Origin: Plantactinospora soyae
Lineage (GTDB): Bacteria > Actinomycetota > Actinomycetes > Mycobacteriales > Micromonosporaceae
Length of the DNA: 64,000 nucleotides
Direction of reading: 5' to 3'
Assembly (NCBI RefSeq): GCF_014874095.1
Contig: NZ_JADBEB010000001.1
Span: 248,001 to 312,000 of the forward strand
Shown one piece after another: positions 32,618-35,583 of the stretch. The position numbers and the translations under genes were made by a program. The notes beneath the pieces were generated by a model. It had not been told where the DNA came from and did not search any database. It saw only the letters and a program-made list of their open reading frames with translations. Numbering within the stretch: the first letter of the stretch is position 1; each line of letters opens with the position of its first letter.

Positions 32618-32808
32618 ATGCGAGTTCCACCCGGGCGCTTGGCGGTCACCGAGCAGTCCTGCTGCTGCCACTCTCGGTGCCCCCACAACAGACATGCAAC
32701 GGTCTAAGCTGATGCATCCCTCGCTAGTCGTTCCTTTTTCACTATTCATCGGAAACAGTCCCAGATTCGGTCGACTGATTGCTTCAATTTGAGACAGGAG
32801 GTCCGGCG

Positions 32809-33678
32809 ATGACGGATGCGGGGTCGTCCATACCGCGCAGGCAACTCGGCCGAATCCTGCGGCAGGCTCGCGAACAGGCCGGGCTCTCCCTGGAGGCCGC
32901 CGGCTCCGACCTCGAATGGTCGCGCTCCACGATGTACCGGATCGAGGGTGGCCAGGCCGCCGTGAAGGCCCGGGACGTCGAGGCGATGTGCCGGCTCTAC
33001 GGCACCTCCGCCGAAATGACCGAGGCGCTGAAGAAGCTCGCCGCCGAAACCAAGGCGAAGGGGTGGTGGCACGCCTACGGCGACACCCTGCCGGCCTGGT
33101 TCGAGCTGTACGTCGGCCTGGAAGCGGCTGCCTCACGCCTACGTCACTGGCAGCCCGCCGCACTGCCCGGGTTGCTCCAGACCAGGGAGTACGCCGAACA
33201 CCTTCTGCGGTCGCACCCGGACATCCCGCCCCGCGAGGTCGGGCGGCTGGTCGAGGTCCGGATGGAACGCCAGAAGATTCTGACCCGGCACAAGCCCGAG
33301 CCACCGCGCCTGGAGGTCATCGTGGACGAGGGCGTGCTGCGCCGGCAGGCCCCCGGGATGGGTCGTCAACTCGCCCACCTCCAGGACCAGGCGACAGCCG
33401 GGGTGGCGAGCTTCCGGGTCGTCCCGCGATCCGTGGCGCCGAGCTTCGCCCTGACCGGCGGGCAGTTCATCATCCTGGAGTTCCCCCCGCTCGGGATCAG
33501 GACTCCCGAACCCACCACTGTCTACAGCGAGCTACTCACGGGCGCTCTCTACCTCGACAAGCCGGCGGAAGTTGCGACGTACGCTAAGGCATGGCGGGCG
33601 CTCGAAGAGGTGGCACTCGATCTGTCTCGGTCGGCCGACCTGATAGCGATGATCGGCAAGGAGATGAGCGATGACTGA
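32809..33678 (+). CDS. XRE family regulator, DUF5753 (WhiJ-like)
   Basis: A 289-residue regulator. Residues 12-66 form the HTH (LGRILRQAREQAGLSLEAAGSDLEWSRSTMYRIEGG). The rest is the DUF5753 domain: YVGLEAAAS, ALPGLLQTREYAEHLLRS, RLEVIVDEGVLRRQ and GALYLDKPAEV. AGGAGG precedes ATG 32809 at good spacing. The DUF397 gene begins in its last codons, the WhiJ-type layout. In Streptomyces such pairs act in development and secondary metabolism. It is divergent from the two small Cys-motif genes, which are the closest candidates for regulation. Confidence 0.9.
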   Translation: MTDAGSSIPRRQLGRILRQAREQAGLSLEAAGSDLEWSRSTMYRIEGGQAAVKARDVEAMCRLYGTSAEMTEALKKLAAETKAKGWWHAYGDTLPAWFELYVGLEAAASRLRHWQPAALPGLLQTREYAEHLLRSHPDIPPREVGRLVEVRMERQKILTRHKPEPPRLEVIVDEGVLRRQAPGMGRQLAHLQDQATAGVASFRVVPRSVAPSFALTGGQFIILEFPPLGIRTPEPTTVYSELLTGALYLDKPAEVATYAKAWRALEEVALDLSRSADLIAMIGKEMSDD

Positions 33679-33871
33679 CCAGTCCGGCGCCGAATGGCGC
33701 AAGTCCCGCCGGAGCAACGGCTCGGGCGGCGAGTGCGTGGAAGTCGCCGGCAACCTGTCCGGCGTCGTTCTGGTACGCGACACCAAGGACCGCGACGGTG
33801 GCACATTGACGTTCGCCCCCACCCCCTGGCGAGCCTTCGTCGACTTCGCGAAGCAGATCCCGACCGGCTGA
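33671..33871 (+). CDS. DUF397 small protein
   Basis: A 66-residue protein with the DUF397 hallmarks: EWRKSRRSNGSGGECVEVAG at the N-terminus, VLVRDTKDRDGGTL in the middle, and FAPTPWRAFVDFAKQ at the end. Members are the small partner of XRE/DUF5753 regulators and are thought to bind or counteract them. The start overlaps the regulator gene by eight bases, so the two are made together. Confidence 0.92.
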   Translation: MTDQSGAEWRKSRRSNGSGGECVEVAGNLSGVVLVRDTKDRDGGTLTFAPTPWRAFVDFAKQIPTG

Positions 33872-33960: not shown

Positions 33961-34214
33961 CAGCCGGTTCCGGCGCACGTACGGGCTCAATCTCGCCCTG
34001 AACGCAGGCTGGAACGCACTCGATCTTCCGGGCCCGCCGACCACGGCTCGCCCTGGCCGAGCTGATCATGCTGAACGCGGCCAACGTGCTCCTGCTGCGC
34101 CGGGCCTGGCGGGCCGACCGGATGGCCGGGGTGGCCCTGCTGCCGTACCTCGGCTGGACCGGCTTCGCCACCGGGCTGAACGCCGCGATCGCCGCCCGGA
34201 ACCCGGGTCGCTGA
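33961..34214 (+). pseudogene. TspO/MBR family relic, truncated and frameshifted
   Basis: Two frames together rebuild the C-terminal half of a TspO protein. The first gives RTYGLNLALNAGWNAL (to about 34018), the second, shifted by one base near 34020-34025, gives FRARRPRLALAELIMLNAAN and PYLGWTGFATGLNAAI up to the TGA at 34212-34214. PYL.W..FATALNAAI is the helix 5 signature of the family. The N-terminal half is missing. The gene is dead. It lies between the DUF397 gene and the DAHP synthase leader, so it may mark an old recombination point. Confidence 0.75.
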
Positions 34215-34284
34215 CCCCGCCTGGTCCGGGTTTGCGGGCGTACCAGGAAATGGGCAGCGGCATCCGGTCCGGCCCGGCGTCGGG

Positions 34285-34297
34285 TATGGTTCTCTGC
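34285..34297 (+). promoter_or_regulatory. -10 element for a leaderless DAHP leader transcript
   Basis: TATGGT at 34285-34290 is followed by seven bases and then GTG 34298. That places the expected transcription start at or next to the first base of the leader ORF. No clear -35 is seen. Confidence 0.45.
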
Positions 34298-34357
34298 GTG
34301 ACGCGCTCGTATCGATGGTTTAGTCAGCCGGCTTCGGAGCCGGTGACTCGGCCATGA
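34298..34357 (+). CDS. Aromatic-codon leader peptide of DAHP synthase
   Basis: A 19-codon ORF from GTG 34298 to TGA 34355-34357: MTRSYRWFSQPASEPVTRP. It carries Tyr (TAT, 34310), Trp (TGG, 34316) and Phe (TTT, 34319) almost in a row, the three end products of the pathway opened by the next gene. TAT and TTT are rare codons in DNA this rich in GC. A strong terminator lies 36 bases after its stop. This is the design of a ribosome-mediated attenuator: shortage of a charged aromatic tRNA would stall the ribosome on these codons. Confidence 0.65.
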   Translation: MTRSYRWFSQPASEPVTRP

Positions 34358-34435
34358 CCTGACGTCACCAAGATCCAGCAGAGCCGGCTGAAGCAGGGAC
34401 ATCGTCCCTGCTTTTTTCGTGGAAACAGCCGGCTC
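34325..34435 (+). promoter_or_regulatory. Alternative RNA pairings of the DAHP attenuator
   Basis: The self-complementary octamer AGCCGGCT occurs at 34326-34333 (inside the leader ORF), 34382-34389 (before the terminator) and 34427-34434 (after it), so the copies can pair in different combinations. In addition CCGGCT-TCGG-AGCCGG (34328-34343) forms a local hairpin within the leader ORF. Ribosome position would decide which pairing forms. The exact switch is inference. Confidence 0.5.
34393..34417 (+). terminator. Intrinsic terminator before DAHP synthase
   Basis: GCAGGGAC (34393-34400), loop ATC, GTCCCTGC (34404-34411), then TTTTTT (34412-34417). It is the best textbook intrinsic terminator of the window and lies between the leader ORF and the DAHP synthase start, 72 bases ahead of the ATG, which only makes sense as an attenuator. 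Confidence 0.85.
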
Positions 34436-34488
34436 GGCTCCCGGGCGCCGGCCCCGGGGTGGCGGTCGGCAGAGAGGGAGCCTCGACG

Positions 34489-35583
34489 ATGACCACCACC
34501 GGAATGGGTCGGGTAAGCGACCAGCGCATCGACCGGGTCGTGCCGCTGACCACACCGGCCCTGCTCAACCACGAACTGCCGCTCGAGGAAGCGCTGACCA
34601 CGGCCGTGCTCGACGGTCGACGATCCGTCGCCCGGGTACTGGACCGGGAGGATGATCGGCTTCTCGTCGTGGTCGGCCCCTGCTCCGTCCATGATCCGGC
34701 GGCGGCACTCGAGTACGCCGAGCGGCTGCGGGTGGCGGCGGACCGGCACGCCGACGATCTGCTGGTCGTGATGCGGGTCTACTTCGAGAAACCCCGTTCG
34801 ACCGTCGGCTGGAAGGGCCTGATCAACGATCCCGGGCTGGACGGTTCGGGCGACGTGAACGCCGGGCTGAAGGCCGCCCGCGCGCTGCTGCTGGACGTGC
34901 TCCGGCTCGGCCTGCCGGTCGGCTGTGAGTTCCTGGACCCGATCACCCCGCAGTACATCGCCGACACGGTCGCCTGGGGTGCGATCGGCGCCCGTACGGT
35001 GGAGAGCCAGGTGCACCGCCAGCTCTCGTCCGGCCTCTCCATGCCGATCGGGATGAAGAACCGCCCGGACGGCAGCGTGGGTACGGCGGTCGACGCGATC
35101 CGGGCCTCCGGGGTGCCGCACGTGTTTCCCGGTATCGACTTCTCCGGGGCGCCGGCCATCATGCACACCCGGGGCAACGCGGACTGCCACCTGGTCCTGC
35201 GTGGCGGCCGGGGCGAGCCGAACTACGACGCCGACTCGGTGGCGGAGTCGCTGGCCCTGCTCCGGGCGGCCGGGCTGCCCGAGCGGCTGGTGATCGACGC
35301 GAGCCACGACAACAGCGGCAAGGACCACCGCCGCCAGCCGGTGGTCGCCACCGAGGTCGGCCGGCAGTTGGCGGACGGCCAGCGGGGCATCGTCGGGGTG
35401 ATGCTGGAGTCGTTCCTGGTGCCCGGTCGGCAGGACCTCGACCCGACCCGACCCCTGGTGTACGGGCAGTCGGTCACCGACGCCTGCCTCGGCTGGCCGG
35501 AAACCGAGCAGGTACTGGCGGACCTGGCCAGCTCGGTCCAGGCCCGACGGGTGTCGACGGCGGCCGGTACGGCGCTGGGCTGA
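34489..35583 (+). CDS. aroF: 3-deoxy-7-phosphoheptulonate synthase (DAHP synthase), class I
   Basis: A 364-residue enzyme joining phosphoenolpyruvate and erythrose 4-phosphate in the first step of the shikimate pathway. VVVGPCSVHDP, MRVYFEKPRSTVGWKGLINDP, GARTVESQVHR, GMKNRPDGS and VIDASHDNSGK are class I (AroFGH-type) signatures with the metal- and PEP-binding residues. Most actinobacteria rely on a class II enzyme, so a class I gene may be an extra, possibly tied to secondary metabolism. The allosteric type (Tyr, Phe or Trp) cannot be told; the choice of symbol is nominal. GGAG lies before ATG 34489. The leader peptide and terminator upstream indicate attenuation. Confidence 0.93.
   Translation: MTTTGMGRVSDQRIDRVVPLTTPALLNHELPLEEALTTAVLDGRRSVARVLDREDDRLLVVVGPCSVHDPAAALEYAERLRVAADRHADDLLVVMRVYFEKPRSTVGWKGLINDPGLDGSGDVNAGLKAARALLLDVLRLGLPVGCEFLDPITPQYIADTVAWGAIGARTVESQVHRQLSSGLSMPIGMKNRPDGSVGTAVDAIRASGVPHVFPGIDFSGAPAIMHTRGNADCHLVLRGGRGEPNYDADSVAESLALLRAAGLPERLVIDASHDNSGKDHRRQPVVATEVGRQLADGQRGIVGVMLESFLVPGRQDLDPTRPLVYGQSVTDACLGWPETEQVLADLASSVQARRVSTAAGTALG

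Follow-up and report, generated by a model that had tools for sequence, protein, structure and literature searches.

Why would a 19-codon open reading frame that packs codons for Tyr, Trp and Phe into 12 nucleotides lie in front of aroF, the gene of a class I DAHP synthase, with a terminator between the two? Is translation of this frame setting the fate of the transcript? Which segments of the RNA would have to compete for that, and do other genes of the aromatic pathway carry the same device? The explanation that we favour, with good confidence, is a ribosome-mediated transcription attenuator of the class I DAHP synthase gene. The window (the whole stretch of DNA analysed, 64,000 nt) belongs to a genome of 9.7 Mb, in which aroF occupies positions 34489..35583 of the window (plus strand, as do all elements of the proposed switch) and is identified by Pfam PF00793 (274.5 bits) and NCBIfam TIGR00034 (463.9 bits). 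Its ATG at 34489 is preceded by a Shine-Dalgarno-like AGAGAGGGA (34471..34479, by direct reading). In a similarity search with aroF the closest named records are Micromonospora species, and the family is therefore taken to be Micromonosporaceae. The same genome has one class II DAHP synthase gene at another locus.

The neighbourhood has features of its own. Directly upstream of the leader frame lies a TspO remnant (34068-34211), a 48-residue ORF of which 38 residues match the end of TspO. Further upstream, 32779-33871 encodes an HTH_31/DUF5753 regulator and then a DUF397 protein, a pair that is frequent in actinobacteria. A GC-rich hairpin of the form CCCGGG..CCGG..CCCGGG sits at 34440-34459, behind the terminator and ahead of the aroF ribosome site, and many relatives have it too.

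The leader peptide and its start signals

The leader ORF is placed between the TspO remnant and aroF, at 34298..34357 (plus strand). It reads VTRSYRWFSQPASEPVTRP, with a GTG start (34298-34300), 19 codons and a TGA stop (34355-34357). The control codons fill 34310..34321, as TAT for Tyr (34310-34312), CGA, TGG for Trp (34316-34318) and TTT for Phe (34319-34321); direct reading thus confirms the frame, with its three aromatic codons inside 12 nt, as the first-pass annotation had described it. How does transcription reach this frame? A -10-like hexamer, TATGGT (34285..34290), lies 7 nt before the GTG, and across the family TANNNT stands 6-7 nt upstream of an in-frame start in 80 of 81 leaders, versus none of 243 control positions placed 40, 60 and 80 nt upstream. 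This spacing, in the window and in the family, supports the earlier proposal that the ORF is leaderless, the transcript probably beginning at the GTG itself. TANNNT has been reported as the -10 box of Streptomyces lividans (PMC8079986). No -35 match was found upstream of the leader GTG, and an automated scan returned no sigma-70 promoter at the leader region.

Are the aromatic codons there by design? Class I DAHP synthase matches occur in 92 of the 121 family genomes; 99 places were listed and the upstream DNA of 90 was examined. A leader was found by pattern at 81 of these 90 loci, always with a matched stretch that ends in Phe (81/81), and Tyr, Trp and Phe are all present in 72 of the 81, Trp being absent in nine. 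The types include YRWF, FYWF, WYSWF, YWRF and WYQRF, among others. An absence of aromatic codons from the orthologous leaders had been named in advance as the outcome that would count against the idea; such codons are present, and the upstream alignment that the first-pass annotation had called for in Micromonosporaceae yielded both the leader and, as described below, covariation. Nine loci stand outside the 81 (L118, L126 and L164-L170). Among them L126 has a Trp-Phe-Trp leader without Tyr, and no leader was seen at L164-L170, which are copies at 49-58% identity.

Codon choice in the family leaders is also distinctive. Tyr is written TAT in 81/81 cases and Phe is written TTT in 86/88, and the aroF genes of 30 family loci use TAT in 0/141 and TTT in 7/126 cases, a bias to be read with the fact that the pattern search for leaders spelled mainly TAT and TTT. 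All family leaders seen in a translated scan sit among the 81, bar L126, the one that has no Tyr. We limit the claim of a bias to the family, as two leaders outside it (L040 and L073) appeared in the translated scan and were missed by the patterns.

Could the codons be coincidental, with the terminator merely ending a transcript from upstream? The terminator is a plain U-tailed hairpin and the upstream gene remnant shares its direction, as such a reading would have it. Short ORFs with Tyr, Trp and Phe inside four codons, on both strands of the window, amount to the leader (with nested starts) and one other, which is antisense and inside another gene. When 34220-34489 was shuffled with its dinucleotides preserved, such an ORF arose in 2 of 2000 sequences, and in none of them together with a TANNNT box. 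This shuffle test, the family-wide conservation and the chorismate mutase counterpart discussed below leave coincidence with hardly any credibility.

An aromatic leader also precedes 22 of 25 actinobacterial loci among the best 80 named records, 20 of them found by pattern and the other two being L040 and L073. These loci come from Micromonospora, Paractinoplanes, Kribbella, Catellatospora, Streptomyces, Rhodococcus, Nocardia, Amycolatopsis, Antrihabitans, Williamsia, Tsukamurella, mycobacteria and a Streptosporangiaceae bin (L039), in which the leader frame has no nearby stop. L037, L046 and L057, of the same 25, have no aromatic leader.

Two further arrangements came to light. The first combines an aromatic leader (WYRF, YWF, YFWF) with no T-tailed hairpin and mostly has a GAGCCGG/CCGGCTC stem instead; loci of this type occur in one genus of the family (L142, L148, L149, L151, L157, L160) and in Rhodococcus, Nocardia, Amycolatopsis and Antrihabitans (L041, L042, L045, L049-L051, L053, L055). 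Perhaps these do not act on transcription. The second concerns proteobacterial class I DAHP synthase genes, which are preceded by short ORFs dense in Phe and Tyr codons (e.g. KFYFYFFW), most of them with a T-tailed hairpin nearby (L063, L064, L069-L072, L078, L079, L081, L082, L084, L085, L089, L091-L094, L102, L107). They are likely an independent or parallel attenuator.

RNA helices and a proposed mechanism

What would the RNA behind the leader do? The intrinsic terminator, T (34390..34417), emerges from reading, folding and covariation. Its stem pairs 34390-34400 with 34404-34414 as the hairpin GAAGCAGGGAC-ATC-GTCCCTGCTTT, its T run covers 34412-34417, and it ends 71 nt before the aroF ATG (72 in the first-pass annotation). 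An automated terminator scan made no call at the site, because its rule needs the T run behind the stem and here the stem includes part of the run. The RNA from 34299 to 34425 folds better than all of 200 shuffles (z -3.73). T is present in 75 of the 81 family leaders, and the six without it all belong to one genus (g19).

Upstream of T, three elements matter. Segment A (34322..34335), directly after the Phe codon and recognised by alignment and covariation, can pair with A' or with B. Segment B (34380..34391) pairs with 34324-34334 of A, and its last 2 nt here belong to T as well. H1, a leader-wide hairpin seen in the free fold (34298..34369), pairs the start codon and the aromatic codons with 34350-34369 and is capped by A:A' (34322-34333 with 34338-34348). 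When each RNA is scored with its own partner against the partners of other species, z reaches -18.1 for T, -10.6 for A:B and -6.0 for A:A'; for H1, scored against shuffled partners, it is -7.7 overall (-7.1 and -3.2 within two clades). These values, like the covariation counts, are inflated by relatedness. A:A' itself is kept across the alignment and varies little, with little covariation. For A:B plus T, 90.0% of cells are paired in 59 aligned sequences and 18 of 24 pairs change on both sides, where shuffles average 9.5 and slid partners reach at most 11; 125 cells changed on both sides, versus 39.8 +/- 6.2 after shuffling. Rfam, at the gathering score, gave no match to a T-box or any other catalogued family in the window or in 18 related loci.

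How could these helices form a switch? In the attenuator that we propose, transcription would start at the GTG and a ribosome would load straight onto the first codon. As long as Tyr, Trp and Phe are in good supply, it would complete the leader and depart, H1 would form (the codons with 34350-34369, and A with A'), B would stay single-stranded, and T would halt transcription before aroF. Should the charged tRNA for any of the three become scarce, the ribosome would stall at TAT, TGG or TTT and disrupt H1; A, exposed just ahead of the ribosome, would then pair with B, and A:B would intrude into the base of T and let the polymerase read through to aroF. Comparison between relatives establishes the leader, its codons, the promoter spacing, T, A:B, H1 and the association with the gene. 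Attenuation by all three aromatic amino acids, as first suggested from the codons, gains support from the 72 of 81 family leaders that contain all three and from the covariation of T. Stalling, the order of folding and a weakening of T by A:B are modelled on the three-hairpin attenuator of ilvBNC, and it is by analogy with ilvBNC that we assign A:B, with moderate confidence, the role of antiterminator.

Spacing bears on this assignment. Of the 52 aligned leaders with Trp, 45 have A beginning 11 nt downstream of the first base of their last Trp codon, and a ribosome covers about 12 nt to its front edge; this distance, which may reflect few independent events, fits a ribosome front edge with Trp in the A site. 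Counted from Phe, A begins at 5 nt in 21 of 59 leaders, at 8 nt in 37 and at 11 nt in one. A ribosome stalled at Phe would cover part of A. Is A:B then weakening T, or could it do the opposite? The main rival to the antiterminator reading holds that A:B stacks on a weak T and strengthens it, and that a stall covers A and leaves T too weak to terminate. The geometry allows this: in 55 of 59 rows A:B and T adjoin, at a distance of 0-2 nt, the two coexist in minimum-energy folds, and T runs are modest, the 10 nt around the end of the stem containing four or more T at 56 of 75 family loci. Stalls at Trp or Tyr, however, leave A free (at least 11 nt from the codon start) and only a stall at Phe would cover it. 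We regard the strengthening role as a minority possibility.

Against antitermination by A:B it counts that this helix and T mostly lie end to end and do not exclude one another. Folding computations neither prove nor exclude it. At equilibrium the mean probability of T is 0.93 in all four ribosome states (five loci give 0, the hairpin being misplaced), so that masking by the ribosome produced no difference in T between states and no support for a switch. Among transcripts truncated before the 3' arm of T exists, the terminator arm was more paired upstream in the stalled state at 7 of 81 loci and less paired at 21.

The first-pass annotation had also proposed that three copies of a palindrome allow alternative folds. 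The three copies are there: AGCCGGCT occurs near the leader at 34326, 34382 and 34427, and nine times across the whole window. They do not yield an antiterminator that is conserved and ties up the arm of the terminator. One form of it would be the classical arrangement, in which A', once A is covered, forms a helix with B plus the start of T. All 11 of 11 pairs are possible in the window (34331-34335 and 34338-34343 with 34384-34394), but of 46 rows only 20, 21 and 8 keep the telling pairs, and partners from other species score as well as own ones, which makes this arrangement doubtful. In general, a conserved helix sequestering the terminator arm fits the window and fails in relatives, and none of the upstream partners tested for the terminator arms gave a favourable own-partner signal.

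The third copy, segment C (34427..34434), is downstream of T and complementary to B, with a B:C score of 0.70 for own against foreign partners (0.63 and 0.59 within clades). Would B:C in the readthrough RNA alter access to the aroF ribosome site and make this a translational switch? With the ribosome stalled, the expected number of B:C pairs is five or more at 59 of 71 loci, versus 22 with the ribosome at the stop. Yet access to the ribosome site goes up at 17 and down at 21 of the 71 loci (out of 86, the 15 without a clear start site being left out), and C shows no co-evolution with the ribosome-site region (0.55). Such a switch is, on these numbers, very improbable.

Gene specificity and the chorismate mutase leader

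Does the element belong to class I DAHP synthase? A covariance model of A:B plus T (R1), applied with strict filters in the family search, matches 80 of 121 family genomes: 80 of the 92 with a class I gene (the other 12 have no match) and none of the 29 without one. The genome of the window has one strong match (106.4 bits; the next scores 16.8). A weak second match (G107:C2, E 0.006) was rejected as false, lying inside a frame that by eye resembles a signal peptidase. Class II DAHP synthase genes showed no leader of this kind at 29 of 30 loci taken, the other (L172) being left out because of a misread offset. Pattern matches at seven of the 29 are, by eye, the end of the upstream gene in six cases (FFWE..SGD), and the seventh (L178, FMAWSF, 310 nt upstream) is unlike the leader. 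No leaders were found at trpE and prephenate dehydratase in the window's own genome.

Among 246 genomes of the class, the model gave 46 matches in 44 genomes, 33 of them before class I DAHP synthase genes and 13 before genes of chorismate mutase-domain proteins, with the domain above the Pfam cut-off in 13/13. Leaders of the 33 have Trp in 19 cases and lack it in 14; those of the 13 contain Phe in all, Tyr in nine and Trp in none. In seven of the 13 proteins, all in a single different family (f17), a partial DAHP_synth_1 domain above its cut-off is joined to the chorismate mutase (L225, L226, L230, L236, L237, L239, L240; L241 falls below cut-off), and some of the 13 may not be plain mutases.

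The window's own genome has a chorismate mutase gene outside the window (L251, G000:C1 near 757,900; NCBIfam chorismate mutase). Its leader, VIHRVLPYFFYGSGSPAAVGRA, is leaderless and has many Tyr and Phe codons, and a strong, long GC hairpin follows, so that one genome carries both leaders. Relatives of this gene occur in 119 of the 121 family genomes, and 50 places were examined with a rule that asks for a CATACT-type box, a start 4-9 nt on and at least three aromatic residues. The rule found a leader at 46 of the 50, with Tyr and Phe in 46/46 and Trp in 0/46. By eye, two of the loci that it missed have leaders without Trp (L282, L300), one has a leader with one Trp (L299), and the fourth, L270, is a short locus whose offset was misread. 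Tyr is mostly TAC in these leaders (76 vs 10 TAT).

Trp thus appears in 72 of 81 DAHP synthase leaders versus none of the 46 at chorismate mutase (Fisher p 7e-26, a value that ignores kinship and measures the contrast only). The control codons follow the pathway, as DAHP synthase feeds Tyr, Trp and Phe and chorismate mutase feeds only Phe and Tyr. Is this a tiered code? On balance we lean towards the view that Actinobacteria govern flux into the aromatic pathway and along it by reusing one leaderless attenuator type at branch points, and that its codons list the downstream end products, with Tyr, Trp and Phe at DAHP synthase and Tyr and Phe at chorismate mutase, each leader perhaps acting as an OR gate for several amino acids.

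Known attenuators and what the switch would mean

How new is such a switch? Most textbook attenuators respond to one amino acid; those of E. coli trp and pheA each respond to a single one, and their leaders are preceded by a ribosome-binding site. With the E. coli attenuators the present element would share the logic of codon-specific stalling and termination (PMC11802643). A close known system is aroR, a leader with Phe-Tyr-Phe codons at Corynebacterium glutamicum aroF, for which attenuation is reported and which, according to a review, responds to Phe and not to Tyr (PMC11802643, PMC4046766). There, as here, an aromatic-codon leader peptide lies directly before a class I DAHP synthase gene in a genome that also has a class II gene; the codons are Phe-Tyr-Phe there and Tyr-Arg-Trp-Phe here. 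A claim that the sensor is without precedent falls with aroR: the kind of switch is already known from C. glutamicum, and what sets the present one apart is its Tyr-Trp-Phe codon set.

For the RNA a model is ilvBNC of C. glutamicum, whose three hairpins act as antiantiterminator (H1), antiterminator (H2) and terminator (H3) (PMC11857589). In both systems the transcript start (here a probable one) adjoins the leader start codon, H1 spans the leader and the terminator comes straight after the preceding helix, and in ilvBNC the distance from the first base of the last Val codon to the antiterminator is 10-11 nt, as counted from the printed peptide (PMC11857589). They differ in amino acids and gene (PMC11857589), and antiterminator and terminator overlap by 3 nt there, whereas the overlap is 2 nt here and most relatives have gaps of 0-2 nt. 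In Streptomyces lividans TK24, too, there are leader peptides that are leaderless, contain control codons and follow TANNNT -10 boxes, but none of the eight leaders tabled in that source precedes DAHP synthase or chorismate mutase (PMC8079986). For Acholeplasma a motif has been predicted (uORFC-13-1) that places a terminator and a short Phe-containing ORF in front of aroF; unlike ours it has a ribosome-binding site and Phe only (PMC8632094). Seliverstov et al. (2005) reported no conserved RNA structures before actinobacterial Phe/Tyr operons (PMC1262725), and our search of open-licence papers turned up no earlier description of either a leader with Tyr, Trp and Phe or the one at chorismate mutase.

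What does this mean for the organisms that have it? The covariance model offers a means to annotate an element that has no Rfam match. A leader that would read three end products within four codons at the entry step of the pathway, with a two-product version at the Phe/Tyr branch in the same family, makes the logic of codon choice testable by comparison. Micromonosporaceae include producers of natural products from aromatic precursors, and in such producers this switch would limit the supply of those precursors.
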